Assembly (NCBI RefSeq): GCF_020804225.1
Contig: NZ_WJBI01000015.1
Coordinates: 116,296 to 172,065, forward strand
Direction of reading: 5' to 3'
DNA from: Methanosarcina sp. DH2
Lineage (GTDB): Archaea > Halobacteriota > Methanosarcinia > Methanosarcinales > Methanosarcinaceae
DNA length: 55,770 nt
Positions 10,524 through 17,930 of the stretch are shown piece after piece. Positions within the stretch are counted from its first letter, which is position 1; each line of letters starts with the position of its first letter. The notes under the pieces were generated by a model. That model saw only the letters and a list, made by a program, of their open reading frames with translations. It was not told the origin of the DNA and searched no databases. Position numbers and translations under genes: made by a program.

Positions 10524-11612
10524 TTATGTATCAAAGAAAATATACAGCGCACTATTGTGAATCATGAAATATGTCCCGGCTTCTGTGTCATATATTACCC
10601 GTGAATTCATATCAACAGCAGCATCTATAAGTTCCTGGAGTGAAGAAATCTCAACCTTCATAAGGGAATCCCTTTCTTCAGGGAGTTTGCCTTTGCTGAT
10701 AAATTCCTTAAAAGTAGAGCGTCTGCGTTCCTTTTCCAGTTTTTCGATATATTCGGGCTCAACCTTATTCATTTTCATGAAAGGAAGAATCATCCCTACA
10801 AGTACTGTGCTTAGAAGGAATAAGGACAGGGGTATCTTGATAATGGACACCGATGGGTCCTTCTGGACTCTAAACTTTTTATATGTATCAGTATCTTCGC
10901 TGAACTTCAGTTCTTCAGGCATCTGATAGTATGAAGAACCTACTACGAGCGGTATGGCAAACTCTTCTGTACCTTCGACATTCTCCCCGTTTATTTTTCC
11001 GTCATAGTTGACGCGGGTTACAATTTCTATTGTTGAATCCTGTGAGTATTTTAGCTGGTCCTGCACTCCTTTGACCATTGCCTGAATTTCGGGCACGTTA
11101 AGGGAAAACTCCTGGGTGACCGAATCCCCGTTATTAATATGATCAAATCCTTCAGATTTCAAAGGAAACTCTTTTTGCCAGAAGATTTTCTCTTCTTCCC
11201 CGGATACTTCCTTACTTGTCGCAACAATTATTGTCTCCCTCTCTACGCTGACGTCCGCAGAATCCGTAGCTTCAAGGCAGTACGTAAAAGAAACGTCAAC
11301 AGTTGGAGACACTGCAAAAAAATAAGCCGGCTTTCCCATCTCAAGTATTGTCCCCTTCGCATAGAGTGGGTTTGCCTCCGTTACAGGTGCAGTATATGTA
11401 TACGTGCCATACTGCGTATAGGAAGAAACCAGTTTTTCCTGGACATCATACCCTGACCCTGTATATGCCCCATAAGTCCACAGCCCGGAAAAAACCATGG
11501 TCATCCCGAATACGAATATAAGTAGTGCAAATTTTTCTATTATAACATTTTTAAGTTTAAGAGACACAATATTCAGAGTCTTACCTCCATTTCCCCGTGT
11601 GTCATTAAGCAC
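10524..11612 (-). CDS. DUF5305-like membrane protein of the SipW/TasA cluster
   Basis: Up to 362 residues: an N-terminal membrane helix (about 27-48), a large extracellular beta-rich domain (about 50-255), a second helix near residues 261-281, and a cytoplasmic tail of about 80 residues containing KLEKERRRSTFKEFISKGKLP. This corresponds to archaeal DUF5305 proteins, which I know as neighbours of signal peptidases and camelysin-like proteins in haloarchaea and methanogens. The start is unsettled: GTG 11612 lacks a ribosome site, while GGAGGT lies just before an in-frame CTG and GTG at about 11567. It is last in a leftward gene set after the peptidase at 11737. A role in export or assembly is inference. 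Confidence 0.72.
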   Translation of the reverse strand: MLNDTRGNGGKTLNIVSLKLKNVIIEKFALLIFVFGMTMVFSGLWTYGAYTGSGYDVQEKLVSSYTQYGTYTYTAPVTEANPLYAKGTILEMGKPAYFFAVSPTVDVSFTYCLEATDSADVSVERETIIVATSKEVSGEEEKIFWQKEFPLKSEGFDHINNGDSVTQEFSLNVPEIQAMVKGVQDQLKYSQDSTIEIVTRVNYDGKINGENVEGTEEFAIPLVVGSSYYQMPEELKFSEDTDTYKKFRVQKDPSVSIIKIPLSLFLLSTVLVGMILPFMKMNKVEPEYIEKLEKERRRSTFKEFISKGKLPEERDSLMKVEISSLQELIDAAVDMNSRVIYDTEAGTYFMIHNSALYIFFDT

Positions 11613-11736
11613 TTAAACATTTAAATCTTTTATCGGTTTTATGTATATCTTTTTATATTACGCTCAAATTATTGATTAAGTTCGGGGATAGGCAAACGTA
11701 GAGCTCAATTTCATCTGAAACGAATTCTCCGCAAGT

Positions 11737-12768
11737 TTAACTCATGTGTAACGTCCTTTTCCACTGTACAAACAACCGGTGGAATCTGACCCTCCTTCCC
11801 CTCCCTCCAACTGCCGATTTCCTGTACCAAAGAGGAAACAGGAGCAGTGTAAAAACTGAGGTATAAAGCAAAACTCCGGCAATCGCAGGAAGATAGGGGT
11901 TTATATCTGCCAGCAAAATTATCCAGAAGACCGGCAATATATAAGGCACTGAACTGACCGCAGCGGGTGTATTTTCCGGCGCAGTAACCTGAGTTATGTT
12001 GGCCGGGGGAACCACCCCGTACCAGGGTTCAATGGCAAGCCTCTGCCTCGAATCGTCAGGCACGAAAACATATACTGACGGCAGGAAGCCGGGGTTTTCT
12101 ACCATATTTTCTCCCTCCAGCACTACAGGACCGTTCTCCCCCAGGTTTTCCGCAACAACCCCTGTAAAAACAAGCCCGCTTATAAGAATGAGCGCTGCAA
12201 GCCTTCTTCCCTTAACGACATAAGAAACGCGCCTTGCCGCCTTTTTCTGTTCGCGTTCCATTTTGCGGGCACGGGCTGGATTGGAGTACTCTATTATATT
12301 CCTGACCTCATCCAGAATGATCAGGCCTGCAGGCAGGATGACCGTAAGGAAAAAAAGCATTTTATCATTTGAAGCCTCGGGCAGATATCCTGCAAAAGGA
12401 ATGACAAAAATCAGCTTTCCCACAATGTTCGATGCAGGCACCTTAAAGCTGTCTTCTTCCTCGTTTGCATCCCCTTTTGTCCTGAAAAGCCGTTCACCTC
12501 TCTCTTCGATGGATATAATCCTATGGGTAACAAAAGAATCAGGTTTACTGCCCGGGTCCCTGAAAGCTATAACGTCCCCTACCTCAAGCTCATCTGGATT
12601 GACAGATTTTACGGTTATCATATCTCCAGGCAGCATTAAAGGCGTCATACTCCCGCTCAACACTATCAGAGCCTTCGCTGACCCTGTAAAGAATGGAATT
12701 AAGGAACTAATAAGGAATACTGCAACCAGAAAGACAATTGCAGTCTGCAGGACTTCTTTTTCCTTCAC
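11737..12768 (-). CDS. Signal peptidase I, archaeal Ser/His type, with long C-terminal extension
   Basis: About 343 residues. The N-terminal half is an S26B signal peptidase: membrane helix, catalytic Ser in LSGSMTPLMLPGD (Ser40 from the GTG start), then box D VTHRI with His82 replacing the bacterial Lys, and RTKGDANEEED. Archaeal enzymes are normally 150-200 residues; this one adds about 170 residues with further helices (roughly 130-150, 190-208, 270-315) and an extracellular loop. GTG 12768 is preferred because AGGAG lies 7 bases upstream; ATG 12795 has none. Located in the SipW/TasA cluster, it probably processes the neighbouring secreted proteins. Confidence 0.88.
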   Translation of the reverse strand: MKEKEVLQTAIVFLVAVFLISSLIPFFTGSAKALIVLSGSMTPLMLPGDMITVKSVNPDELEVGDVIAFRDPGSKPDSFVTHRIISIEERGERLFRTKGDANEEEDSFKVPASNIVGKLIFVIPFAGYLPEASNDKMLFFLTVILPAGLIILDEVRNIIEYSNPARARKMEREQKKAARRVSYVVKGRRLAALILISGLVFTGVVAENLGENGPVVLEGENMVENPGFLPSVYVFVPDDSRQRLAIEPWYGVVPPANITQVTAPENTPAAVSSVPYILPVFWIILLADINPYLPAIAGVLLYTSVFTLLLFPLWYRKSAVGGRGRRVRFHRLFVQWKRTLHMS

Positions 12769-12877
12769 GCTTCTACTCCTTTCACAAATTTCCATCCAGG
12801 GAAATTTTTGACCTTCCTGACCCCCTTCTTCTGTATTTATAGCAGGAGAGGAAAATCCTGACTTTCCCCTGTATCTA

Positions 12878-13618
12878 TTACGTATTTTTCCTGTTACTGA
12901 CTATTTTCTGTACAGGTACAGGTGCTTCCTGCCCATTTACAGATCCATATTCTTGGCTACTTTCTGTCTCTATTACTTCTGTATTTGGCGCAGATACTTC
13001 CTGTTCTTTCTGGCCCGTATCTATTCCGGAAGCTTCCTGCGCATTCGGACTCTCTATTTGTGGATCTGCCGCAAAAGATTCCTGAAAATTCGAGCGGTAT
13101 TTGGGATCCGTTACAAAGCTCCTTACAGACCCATCACCCATAATAATGTTAATTGTGAAGGGTGCAAGGCTAAATATGTCGCTATCGAAATAAAACTCAA
13201 GATTTGCAGAAGAATCATTCCCAAGCACATAGTTCTCCACGTCCATTACTTCCCCTACTTTCCTGCTGCCTGTGAAGAATTCTTTTCCGTGTACCTTTAT
13301 CTCTGTTATAGATCTGGCATCACCCTTGGAAATATCCCACCAGATCTGGATTTTATCAATGGTCACACTCTGGGTCCCACTGACATCAAAAGTGATTCCT
13401 TGAAGTTTTTCACCGTTTTCAATGAGCTTGCTGTCGGAAACTATGAGATGATCGGCTTCATTGTCCCAGACAGCTGCTGTCATTGCGTTTCCAGCACTGT
13501 ATTCAACATCATAGAAATAAGCAAATGTATTTTCCGTCAAACAGTTGAATTCTGTTCCTGATAAAATGAGAGATGTTAACAGCATTCCATAAAGTATTAT
13601 CTTATTGAATGCCCTCAT
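12878..13618 (-). CDS. SipW-dependent-type secreted protein
   Basis: 246 residues. An N-terminal hydrophobic leader (about 7-25) is followed by AYFYDVEYSAGNAMTAAVWD, a variant of the camelysin/TasA hallmark W-x-FSDTE-xS-GN-LTAG. A beta-rich domain of about 150 residues follows, then a Glu/Gln/Ser/Pro-rich tail from about residue 180 that looks like a flexible linker. The start ATG lies two bases past the stop of the SipW-type peptidase gene, with GAGGCGA as ribosome site inside that gene's last codons, so translation is coupled. It is likely a substrate of that peptidase and a surface or matrix protein. Confidence 0.72.
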   Translation of the reverse strand: MRAFNKIILYGMLLTSLILSGTEFNCLTENTFAYFYDVEYSAGNAMTAAVWDNEADHLIVSDSKLIENGEKLQGITFDVSGTQSVTIDKIQIWWDISKGDARSITEIKVHGKEFFTGSRKVGEVMDVENYVLGNDSSANLEFYFDSDIFSLAPFTINIIMGDGSVRSFVTDPKYRSNFQESFAADPQIESPNAQEASGIDTGQKEQEVSAPNTEVIETESSQEYGSVNGQEAPVPVQKIVSNRKNT

Positions 13619-13620
13619 TT

Positions 13621-14100
13621 TTATCGCCTCATTGAACCCATAATCTCAAGCAATTCCTGTATAATCAGGATTGATGCAGGAAAAATTACAAGTATTAAAA
13701 ATCCCTTTGAAGTCCCTGCAAAATGAATTAAACTCCCAAAGTATGGTATCTTGAAAAGCATAATTCCTACAACGTCTTCAGGAGAAACCATGTAGTCATC
13801 TGGTTCAGTGTATGCGTCTCCTTTAGTTCTATAACTCCCTTTTTCGATTCCCACTATCCTGTGAGTGACTATAAGCCTCTCATTTTCTTCAAATGTATGA
13901 TGATAGGACACTATATCTCCAACAACGGGCTGCGTTTCTGTAGTGTCGACCACAATTATATCGCTGGCTGTTATTGTGGGCTCCATGCTGCTTCCTGTCA
14001 CAGTCATGAGCTGGACTGAGCCTGTTGGGATTATAGTGCTGAGAATTGGTATGATCACAATGATAAGCAATGTTGAAATAAAATTCTCTATTATTTTCAT
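13621..14100 (-). CDS. SipW-type signal peptidase I
   Basis: About 159 residues, the compact size of archaeal/SipW signal peptidases. An N-terminal helix (about 5-25) leads to TVTGSSMEPTI (catalytic Ser38 from ATG 14100), then VTHRIVG with catalytic His80 in place of bacterial Lys, and the conserved YRTKGDAYTEPDD box; a C-terminal helix (about 133-153) anchors the end. ATG 14100 is taken; TTG 14109 is the alternative, and neither has a strong ribosome site. It is directly coupled to the secreted protein gene downstream (two-base gap). It likely cleaves the camelysin-like leaders encoded on both sides. Confidence 0.9.
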   Translation of the reverse strand: MKIIENFISTLLIIVIIPILSTIIPTGSVQLMTVTGSSMEPTITASDIIVVDTTETQPVVGDIVSYHHTFEENERLIVTHRIVGIEKGSYRTKGDAYTEPDDYMVSPEDVVGIMLFKIPYFGSLIHFAGTSKGFLILVIFPASILIIQELLEIMGSMRR

Positions 14101-14219
14101 ATTCCACAAGTCGATCTTATTTTCTTAGTCCATTTGTAAAAATAGAAATGTGTGGAATGTGCTGTTCGAAGTTCCCCACATTTACTTGCTTGCCTCCTGA
14201 TTTACGGCGACTCCTATAG

Positions 14220-14804
14220 TCATACAAGTTTTATTAAGTGAGACATATTTAATTCCTTGGGAGATGGAAGGTTATCAAGTTTGGTTTTTGAGAGATCTCC
14301 AGGATATCTTACATTATTACAATTCTTATCGGATAAGAACTGATGATTGTACTGATATGAGCCACTTAGTACCATACGAGATCAGTTACAGGAACATTTA
14401 TTACCACAACAGAATATTTCATTCCGTCAACCATGAGGAACTTTGTCATTTTTAACACCATTTTTGTCAGCATCTGACTCGGATCTATTCCGTGACCATT
14501 ATTTGCTTTCCTATCGTCATCCTCATGTTCATCCTTATAAAAACGAATTTTGACATGGTTTGCTTCCAGGCTTCCAAGGTTGTGTATTCTGATATCTCCT
14601 CCTTAACTATGCTTCCGGGAGCCAATGACACTTCTACTAAGTATTAGGATGGAATTGTATCTGTTATATAAATTAAGAGTCCCAGCTGTCAAGGAATTTC
14701 CACTCGGTATCTCATATCGCGATTCTCTGCACACTCCCTATACAGGCTAGAAAACGCACAAGAGATATTGGCAGGACTGCAGAAGCAGAAGGTATCAGTT
14801 TCAT
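14220..14804 (-). pseudogene. Decayed TasA/camelysin-like gene
   Basis: On the minus strand a good ribosome site (TTAGGAGG) precedes ATG at 14804, but the reading frame breaks repeatedly. Pieces in different frames still read DTE, then SGNSLTAGTLNLY, then VSLAPGSIVKEE, IRIHNLGSLEANHVKIRFYKD and NNGHGIDPSQMLTKM, and a last piece containing GDLSKTKLDNLPSPKELN. The SGN-LTAGTLNL block is the hallmark of SipW-dependent camelysin/TasA proteins. At least two frameshifts and internal stops are needed to explain it. It lies between the peptidase and the intact family member at 14857, so the locus once had at least three secreted proteins. Confidence 0.78.
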
Positions 14805-14856
14805 TTTTGATGCCTCCTAATAAAAAATAGTAAGGAATAACCTTACTATTCCTTAC

Positions 14857-15429
14857 TCAGGTCTGAGTTAAAGCCTGATTCAGAGTGAACTCAAGGTCGA
14901 AGACAAATTTGTCAGTTTGAATCTCGTTGTTTGCATTGTCAACTGCATATGTAAGATCAATCTTCGTGTCTGCACCATTAGAGAGCGATCCAAGACTCCT
15001 TGTATATATACTACCTTTATTATAAATTGTTAGATTATCTGCATAAATTGTCAGATGCTTTCCAAGCTCTCCTATTTCAGGAGTTGTATCGTCTTGAATT
15101 TCAGGATCTATTATACTATTTTCAAGATTTTTTATAGTTGTTTCATTAATAGTTACGGAGAGATTTCCGTCAACAGAACCTTCGTTTTTTACGTATATGG
15201 GTCCAATATTACCTTTATCATTTGGATATAAGCCATCAAGAGTGAAGCCAGAGACTCCATTAGAATAGTTAGTTCCATCCTTCGATAACTTAAGATTCAT
15301 AGTTCCAGCCGTAAGTGTGTTTCCAGTACTTTTTTCAGTATCACTGAATTGTGCCCATGTTCCGGCACCTGTCACAGCAGCGACCAAGCCAATAATGAGC
15401 ACGCTCAAAAGTATCTTCTTGTTAAGCAT
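14857..15429 (-). CDS. TasA/CalY-like SipW-dependent secreted protein
   Basis: 190 residues. The leader (about 1-25: LLSVLIIGLVAAVTGAGTWA) runs into QFSDTEKSTGNTLTAGTMNL, an almost perfect SipW-dependent signature. The remaining 140 residues are beta-rich with the camelysin-type ending FDLEFTLNQAL. In Bacillus such proteins form biofilm amyloid fibres or act as surface metalloproteases; no zinc-binding motif is visible here, so a structural role is likelier. The start has GAGGTG 7 bases upstream. A TATA element lies about 150 bases upstream, implying a long leader. The gene is followed by the decayed paralogue and the SipW-type peptidase. Confidence 0.9.
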   Translation of the reverse strand: MLNKKILLSVLIIGLVAAVTGAGTWAQFSDTEKSTGNTLTAGTMNLKLSKDGTNYSNGVSGFTLDGLYPNDKGNIGPIYVKNEGSVDGNLSVTINETTIKNLENSIIDPEIQDDTTPEIGELGKHLTIYADNLTIYNKGSIYTRSLGSLSNGADTKIDLTYAVDNANNEIQTDKFVFDLEFTLNQALTQT

Positions 15430-15583
15430 TTCTTTACACCTCTTTGATCAATCCTATAATTGTCAATCGTCAATTTGCTTGTCATTTGCTCCCCAATCTC
15501 TGCAATAGAAAGGGAAGAAGCCAATTTCTGGTCTCGGTCCTTCGACCTCCTGCTCCCTCGATCTGAGCTATAGGACATATGAA

Positions 15584-15602
15584 TTTATTTAATATAGTTA
15601 TT
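15584..15602 (-). promoter_or_regulatory. Promoter of the TasA-like gene
   Basis: The minus strand shows TATATTAAATAAATT, a strong archaeal TATA element, about 155 bases before the TasA-like start. This predicts a leader of about 130 bases. The rest of 15603-15954 shows no gene. Confidence 0.45.
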
Positions 15603-15954
15603 GGCTGATTAGTGGTGTTTTAGGAGTGTTAATGGGCAATTAAGGTTATCAAGAGGCTTTATGATCTTATGGAAAGATAGGGTATGCTTAATACCTGAAT
15701 GCTGTAAAAAGGGAGACATTAACCAGGAAAAGGCTAAACTTCAATTTATTTTATATAAAGATTCTTCATCTAGGATCTTGAAAACTGGCCTGAGATTCGG
15801 GCAGAAGGATCTGGATTTGTCTACACGCTAAGAGGAATAGAAAAATGACTGGTTAAAAGAAATTTTTATCTTGATAATGTGGGGTTAACATTATCGGATG
15901 GCTTTTGGTTGCTACATGAAAAAACAGGGGTTAAATCTGCACTATGATATACGC

Positions 15955-16452
15955 CTATCCTTCAAGTTTACGGAGATGGCACATGTTGGTTGTTGAGGAG
16001 ACAAGAAAGATTATGCTTACGAAAAGCATCCACTGAGAACTTGAGATCCATTCGATGAGACCTGATAAGATGGTGAGGCTGCCACCAATGGCAAGGATGC
16101 TCAAGCCTAAGTAGAACTGGCTCCAGGAGATGTCACCTTTATCTACGGTTTCCATATATATATCGAAATCATGGACTGCGTGAAGAAGTTCCACAGTGTC
16201 ATGTTCCCTGTTGTAGGTGATTATTCCCAGGCTTTCCATTTTTGGGATATGTGTCTGGAGTAGAGAGATATATATGCTTTTTCTGACATTGCTATTTGGC
16301 TCTTCGGTTTCGGCTTCCAAACGGGCGATTTCTTCAGACAGGGAGCGTACACTCTGATTTCCCTGGCTGCGCAGGAGTTCCAGAACATGCCTTCTCCGAT
16401 CATTCTGGAGGACTCCAAAAATATCACTCTTTGACAATTGCGATTGTGTCAT
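15955..16452 (-). CDS. DUF7344-like winged-helix membrane regulator
   Basis: 165 residues. The N-terminal 85 residues form a winged helix (SDIFGVLQNDRRRHVLELLRSQGNQSVRSLSEEIA, then HIPKMESLGIITYNREHDTVEL). The C-terminus has two membrane helices (about 108-128 and 135-153). The DRRRHVLELL signature matches the DUF7344 family, common in haloarchaea and often encoded near SipW/camelysin genes. It is the upstream-most leftward gene of the cluster, separated by about 500 bases from the TasA-like gene. It probably regulates the cluster. GTGATC lies upstream of the ATG as ribosome site. Confidence 0.75.
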   Translation of the reverse strand: MTQSQLSKSDIFGVLQNDRRRHVLELLRSQGNQSVRSLSEEIARLEAETEEPNSNVRKSIYISLLQTHIPKMESLGIITYNREHDTVELLHAVHDFDIYMETVDKGDISWSQFYLGLSILAIGGSLTILSGLIEWISSSQWMLFVSIIFLVSSTTNMCHLRKLEG

Positions 16453-17795: not shown

Positions 17796-17930
17796 TTGGT
17801 TGTGCTTTGGTTGTGCTTTGGTTGTGCTTTGGTTGTGCTTTGGTTGTGCTTTGGTTGTGCTTTGGTTGTGCTTTGGTTGTGCTTTGGTTGTGCTTTGGTT
17901 GTGCTTTGGTTGTGCTTTGGTTGTACTTTC
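17796..17930. repeat. 11-bp tandem repeat array
   Basis: About twelve nearly perfect copies of GGTTGTGCTTT run head to tail, ending with one variant (GGTTGTACTTT). The long frames across it are repeat artefacts. Copy number is likely to vary between strains. The preceding stretch 17564-17795 has an inverted repeat (AAATTCTGG...CCAGAATTT) and no gene. Confidence 0.95.

Follow-up and report, generated by a model that had tools for sequence, protein, structure and literature searches.

The fibres formed by TasA are now understood as donor-strand fibres and not as classical amyloid, and TasA/SipW operons are known from Bacillus and Clostridium (PMC9674648, PMC10151520, with PMC7395162 for the operons). 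In Bacillus subtilis, the N-terminus of TapA supplies the first donor strand (PMC10151520, PMC10903470). Archaeal filaments of the TasA type are known as well, AbpA of Pyrobaculum being cited in PMC9674648 and PMC10903470. Here, we describe a gene cluster at positions 10524-16452 on the minus strand of a stretch of 55,770 nucleotides from Methanosarcina sp. DH2 (contig NZ_WJBI01000015.1, forward-strand positions 116,296 to 172,065), referred to in its full length as the window. With a probability of about three in four, we consider it a dedicated locus that makes and anchors a surface fibre of the TasA/AbpA donor-strand type, comprising a putative TapA-like initiator, dedicated peptidases and the membrane protein DUF5305 as a presumed partner. 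A preliminary description of the locus had likened it to the gene logic that makes biofilm amyloid fibres in Bacillus; the relationship to TasA stands, whereas the term amyloid does not agree with the donor-strand nature of TasA fibres.

Gene content and conservation of the cluster

The cluster reads, in the direction of transcription, DUF7344, TasA1, the relic of a second TasA-like gene (TasA2), a short signal peptidase, the secreted protein SEC, a long signal peptidase and DUF5305 (Table 1). All six open genes previously listed were found in place, with a family matched for each except SEC, and the relic is real. The cluster has its closest named relatives in Methanosarcina spelaei MC-15 and in metagenome-assembled genomes (MAGs) of Methanosarcina. 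The order DUF7344, TasA-like gene or genes, short peptidase, SEC, long peptidase, DUF5305 is present in M. spelaei (L084), MAG UBA11020 (L085) and genome G151 (L050). It is likewise kept in full in Methanococcoides seepicolus (L091), which has one TasA-like gene, and in G154 (L052), where a second TasA-like gene follows beyond DUF5305. Moreover, two genomes (G075, G117) of a distant family of the same phylum, termed f5 (genomes of 1.2-2.3 Mb), show the same order with two to four TasA-like genes; in the flanks that were read, DUF7344 was not seen. Two further f5 genomes (G024, G034) have a version that lacks the short peptidase, and the Methanosarcina loci L051, L059, L060 and L061 are rearranged. 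In G052, a KaiC-like/DUF7504 protein (L067:4039-4755) directly follows the TasA-peptidase cluster.

Of 31 genomes of the genus, 11 have DUF5305, 12 have DUF7344 and 11 have SipW-type leaders, nearly the same set in each case. DUF5305 and DUF7344 occur together in 10 genomes and are both missing from 18 (Fisher p 1.5e-5), and for DUF5305 and SipW-type leaders the counts are 10 and 19 (p 2.6e-6; p 1.2e-7 in the phylum), with the limit that these statistics ignore kinship among the genomes. Thus, the co-occurrence in other archaea that had been proposed as a check is clearly positive, for DUF5305 with both SipW-type leaders and DUF7344 in the genus and for the gene order in other genera. The genome of strain DH2 contains exactly one above-cut-off match each to TIGR04088, DUF5305 and DUF7344, all of them within the cluster. 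Because the order recurs in other genera and each of these families is matched only once in the genome, the cluster is far from a chance assembly. When compared with M. spelaei, the intact genes have a lower dN (0.13-0.38) than dS (0.8-1.6), and the rest of the locus therefore does not resemble a decaying one.

Table 1. Features of the Methanosarcina sp. DH2 cluster, given in positions of the window
Feature	Position	Strand	Basis
DUF7344 winged-helix protein, hydrophobic C-terminal part, likely dedicated regulator	15955..16452	-	PF24035 E 6.5e-25
TasA1, TasA-like major subunit, 190 aa, SipW-type leader	14857..15429	-	TIGR04088; profile match to TasA; fold
Presumed donor strand, mature N-terminus of TasA1, residues 27-46, QFSDTEKSTGNTLTAGTMNL	15292..15351	-	Role inferred from TasA
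13-bp inverted repeat and T-run, candidate partial terminator	14829..14857	-	Pattern scan only
TasA2 relic, second TasA-like subunit gene	14259..14825	-	tblastn and DNA match to relatives
Short archaeal type I signal peptidase, 162 aa as listed	13621..14109	-	TIGR02228 82.6 bits
SEC, TapA-like secreted protein, 246 aa	12878..13618	-	Leader/N-terminus match to TasA-like proteins
Long archaeal type I signal peptidase, 352 aa	11737..12795	-	TIGR02228 109 bits
DUF5305 membrane protein, 362 aa	10524..11612	-	PF17231 E 1.7e-41

The TasA-like subunit and its secreted partner

The leader of TasA1 is of the SipW-dependent type, as indicated by a TIGR04088 score of 32 bits against a cut-off of 19. When a profile built from 12 TasA-like proteins was compared with PDB chains using hmmsearch, it matched Bacillus TasA (5of1, E 6e-7; 8aur, E 8e-7) over profile positions 33-182, which make up most of the mature protein, and thus places TasA1 in the same superfamily. 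Weaker PDB sequence matches (E 0.02-0.03) were taken as chance. The proposed relationship to TasA is therefore shown by a profile match to TasA itself and supported by the fold.

The AlphaFold2 model of the TasA1 monomer has a mean predicted local distance difference test score (pLDDT) of 78.1, with a core above 90. Its N-terminal residues 21-38 are unpacked, as expected for a strand destined for the next subunit; low confidence alone would look alike. The best structural neighbour of the model is CanA (9dlo, Z 8.1, 3.0 Å, 107 residues aligned), followed by AbpA (7ueg, Z 7.3, root-mean-square deviation 3.9, 121 aligned, tied with other beta-sandwiches), CanA again (7uii, Z 6.9), the Sulfolobus thread (7pnb, Z 6.8) and TasA (8aur, Z 6.8); chaperone-usher pilins rank after TasA. 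Donor-strand filament subunits dominate the neighbour list, each with a modest Z; values of 6.8-8.1 fall in the range of unrelated beta-sandwiches, and the fold alone is therefore no proof. Structure prediction, which had also been suggested earlier, accordingly placed TasA1 closest to the filament subunits CanA, AbpA and TasA. Foldseek alone returned carbohydrate-binding modules first with low TM-scores, which we treated as generic jelly-roll similarity.

The rank of CanA raises the question of whether TasA1 might build an assembly of the TasA superfamily with another shape, such as CanA-like cannula tubes or a sheet, and not a thin bundled fibre. Some relatives have clusters with two or three TasA-like genes, which would suit such a structure, and the CanA monomer 9dlo is the top match, though within 1 Z of AbpA 7ueg. 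However, the sequence profile matches TasA and not CanA, and the TapA-like SEC gene together with the peptidase arrangement follows the Bacillus fibre operon. We therefore regard another shape as unlikely.

The subunit bodies have been exchanged between strains. The clusters L084 and L085 are ~95% identical at the DNA level through most of their length, and residues 1-46 of TasA1 are 91% identical, whereas the body from residue 47 on (L084:4462-4854) shows a protein identity of 38% and a dS of 1.6. The body of L084 is, in contrast, 90% identical to that of L061 (dS 0.04), two loci whose short peptidases differ at a dS of 1.45. These sequence comparisons indicate that the TasA1 body was cleanly replaced by recombination, sparing the leader and the presumed donor segment, as would be expected for an exposed polymer that keeps its interlocking strand. 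Such a swap suggests that the cell surface is under strong selection.

In strain DH2, the second subunit gene is broken. The disrupted frames of the relic match the second TasA-like gene of the relatives (tblastn 2e-7 with TasA2 of L049, in two frames), and the DNA at its start is 86.5% identical over 52 nt; several stops and frame changes are present. At the same place, TasA2 is intact in L048/L084, L049/L085, L050 and L061. Directly behind the TasA1 stop codon lies a 13-bp hairpin followed by a T-run, sites of this kind being as numerous as expected from shuffled sequence; as a candidate partial terminator, it could possibly raise the amount of subunit mRNA over that of the accessory genes. 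Upstream of TasA1, no conserved operator stood out, and matches to sigma-70-type promoters were found only at the level of shuffled sequence.

SEC consists of a leader and a TasA-like N-terminal segment, an unrelated middle part and a polar tail (residues 176-246). An hhalign comparison with the TasA-like proteins aligned only 44 columns (E 1.6e-9, 96%), which cover the leader and the strand next to it at the N-terminus; beyond these, SEC and the TasA-like proteins have little in common. With its own body behind a TasA-like N-terminal donor segment, SEC resembles an initiator of the TapA kind, and by analogy its relation to the TasA-like proteins would be that of TapA to TasA in B. subtilis. 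In the relatives, the SEC slot is occupied either by small proteins (144-344 aa) or, in a second cluster subtype (e.g., L086, L088, L051, L057), by proteins of 338-1343 aa; M. spelaei and G151 each carry both subtypes. Tandem PKD domains were found in all scanned slot proteins of the second subtype except the one of 338 aa (L089), where PKD domains are located on the open frame that follows. The slot proteins at L086:4961-8704, L057:4913-8944 and L051:6580-9213 measure 877-1343 aa, and both of those scanned (L086, L051) contain tandem PKD domains. This variable, partly PKD-bearing slot suggests that it sets the length or the binding of the fibre end.

Signal peptidases, DUF5305 and the DUF1102 variant

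Both peptidases belong to archaeal signal peptidase I, with TIGR02228 scores (Table 1) above the cut-off of 51.85, and the residues S41, H83, D98 and D104 (numbering of the first row) are invariant in the peptidase alignment, which supplies the catalytic Ser, His and Asp. The short enzyme was listed from a TTG codon; the relatives start at an ATG three codons further on, at ~14100. Residues 166-352 of the long enzyme comprise further membrane spans and an outside loop, with transmembrane-like segments starting at residues 12, 143, 196, 276 and 301. In the peptidase tree, a single clade (95/97) unites the short enzymes of Methanosarcina, Methanococcoides and f5 and keeps them separate from the long enzymes. 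The pair therefore did not arise by recent tandem duplication; judging from the tree, either the pair is old or the whole cassette moved as a unit. A third peptidase of the DH2 genome (L094) lies far from both lineages. The preliminary description had stressed two Ser/His peptidases. Both enzymes do have these residues, but archaeal type I signal peptidases are in general of the Ser/His kind, and the Ser and His motifs are also found in L094. What is special to the cluster is that two extra peptidase lineages are encoded beside their presumed substrates.

DUF5305 matches PF17231 with 142.5 bits (gathering cut-off 29) over residues 145-359 and is laid out as a transmembrane segment, a beta-rich ectodomain, a second transmembrane segment and a conserved cytoplasmic end, the transmembrane-like stretches starting at residues 22 and 253. 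It is present in 29 of the 148 genomes of the phylum, and at 24 of the 30 phylum loci read a signal peptidase lies within 1.5 kb, with several more within ~3 kb; a scan of genome contigs with a close DUF5305 alignment found only 8 loci. In G078, a signal peptidase and the C-terminal part of DUF5305 are joined in one protein of 340 aa (L031:658-1677), whose PF17231 match (E 1.2e-6) falls just under the gathering score. DUF7344 has a hydrophobic stretch from residue 113 that probably spans the membrane. Its gene sits upstream of the cluster in the relatives as well, and it is likely the dedicated regulator. Two Methanosarcina genomes contain DUF7344 with no DUF5305 detected (G174:C2:3736013-3736243; G165:C205:1835-2062), the latter with a SipW-type leader on the same contig.

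At other loci of f5 and haloarchaea (L080, L081, L077 and haloarchaeal loci), the same pair of long peptidase and DUF5305, in some cases with DUF7344 nearby, adjoins DUF1102 proteins, and no TasA-like gene was seen in these neighbourhoods as read from the listed coordinates. The DUF1102 proteins have similar short leaders but no match to the TasA-like proteins beyond the leader (hhalign 12%). The literature searched held no description of such DUF1102-signal peptidase-DUF5305 loci and no mention of either DUF5305 or DUF1102. The pair may thus be a shared processing or assembly unit with more than one client. We tentatively extend this, at rather less than even odds, to a machine that would assemble self-polymerising surface proteins in archaea generally and serve at least the two unrelated client classes TasA/camelysin and DUF1102. 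Leader cleavage by this machine would be coupled to strand hand-over, and client bodies would be exchanged between strains like allele-variable pilins under virus or partner pressure.

The DUF1102 loci also bear on the possibility that long peptidase and DUF5305 form a module for leader processing and quality control that serves a set of non-polymerising surface proteins, with the TasA-like protein as one soluble or wall-bound client. Such a module would accommodate the pairing with DUF1102 without TasA and the PKD-repeat proteins in the SEC slot. We nevertheless judge it improbable, because the N-terminal segment common to the TasA-like proteins and SEC, the donor strand in TasA, is kept while the bodies change. 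Least credible of all is a secreted metalloprotease of the camelysin type, accompanied by dedicated genes for its secretion, as suggested by the Pfam name Peptidase_M73 camelysin metallo-endopeptidase (E 4.8e-4, below cut-off), since the 190-aa TasA1 lacks an HExxH-like motif, contains a single histidine and has filament subunits as structural neighbours.

Proposed fibre assembly and comparison with described systems

The donor-strand fibre that we favour would be built as follows, each step being modelled on TasA, TapA and SipW. TasA1, and TasA2 where intact, would be exported by Sec with the unusual leader. Cleavage of the TasA1 and SEC leaders by both cluster peptidases would release the N-terminal strand. 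This strand would fit into the next subunit, so that the subunits chain by donor-strand exchange. SEC, whose body differs but whose N-terminal strand is the same, would give the first strand and thus start and anchor the fibre according to the TapA logic; in other strains, PKD repeats would lengthen the slot protein into a stalk or adhesin. DUF5305 and the long peptidase would constitute the membrane site at which processing and assembly are joined, and DUF7344 would control expression of the cluster. The product may function in adhesion or as a matrix.

Several observations weigh against this proposal, in addition to the kinship disregarded in the co-occurrence statistics and the modest Z-scores of the TasA1 model. 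The family models specific for the Bacillus proteins are not reached, neither for TasA (NF046066, 22.2 bits; curated cut-off 450) nor for SipW (NF046067, 78.2 and 85.2 bits; curated cut-off 190). SEC matches no family above cut-off, its TapA score (TIGR04087) being 15.3 bits against a curated cut-off of 80 (E 0.011). The model of DUF5305 is poor (pLDDT 59, predicted TM-score 0.37), and the similarities it gave to Ig-like transglutaminase barrels and YEATS domains (Z up to 9.2) were therefore set aside. As its own TasA2 is dead, the system may be reduced in strain DH2. Finally, the loci L053, L054, L056, L062 and L063 lack the short peptidase, and two peptidases are thus not strictly required.

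Outside the cluster, the window contains a tandem array at 17796-17929 with 12.2 copies, at 99% matches, of the 11-bp unit TTGGTTGTGCT. The array creates artificial reading frames. No Rfam match was found.

With this locus, methanogens have a specific candidate for a biofilm or cell-cell fibre that can be put to the test, and DUF5305, an unnamed membrane family, is tied to surface-protein processing. The archaeal version had been called poorly described. Since archaeal filaments of the TasA type are known from AbpA, as cited in the sources given above, this holds for parts of the system, namely the two-peptidase archaeal cassette with its DUF5305 module and DUF7344, the initiator slot that varies and can be extended by PKD repeats, the variant with DUF1102 and the exchange of subunit alleles, all of which are new.

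Pyrobaculum AbpA is likewise an archaeal TasA-type subunit and ranks among the top structural matches; it comes from another phylum, and the PDB search gave no AbpA sequence match at E up to 1. The DUF1102 loci have the long peptidase and DUF5305 in common with the cluster and differ in their secreted proteins. The sipW-bsaABCRSD locus of C. perfringens also combines a dedicated SipW-type peptidase, a polymerising secreted subunit, accessory secreted proteins and in-operon regulation, but employs a two-component regulator where the cluster has DUF7344, and the available part of its description reports no DUF5305 (PMC7395162). In comparison with tapA-sipW-tasA of B. subtilis, SEC is no TapA by score and no SinR-type regulator is found among the cluster genes. 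Both loci encode a TasA homologue with a SipW-type leader, an adjoining S26 peptidase of the archaeal type and a small secreted partner of which only the N-terminus is common to the TasA-like protein, and the Methanosarcina cluster adds a second peptidase, one of the two bearing a long membrane extension, as well as DUF5305 and DUF7344. In archaea, the TasA/SipW scheme thus turns up again, equipped with peptidases and a regulator of its own.

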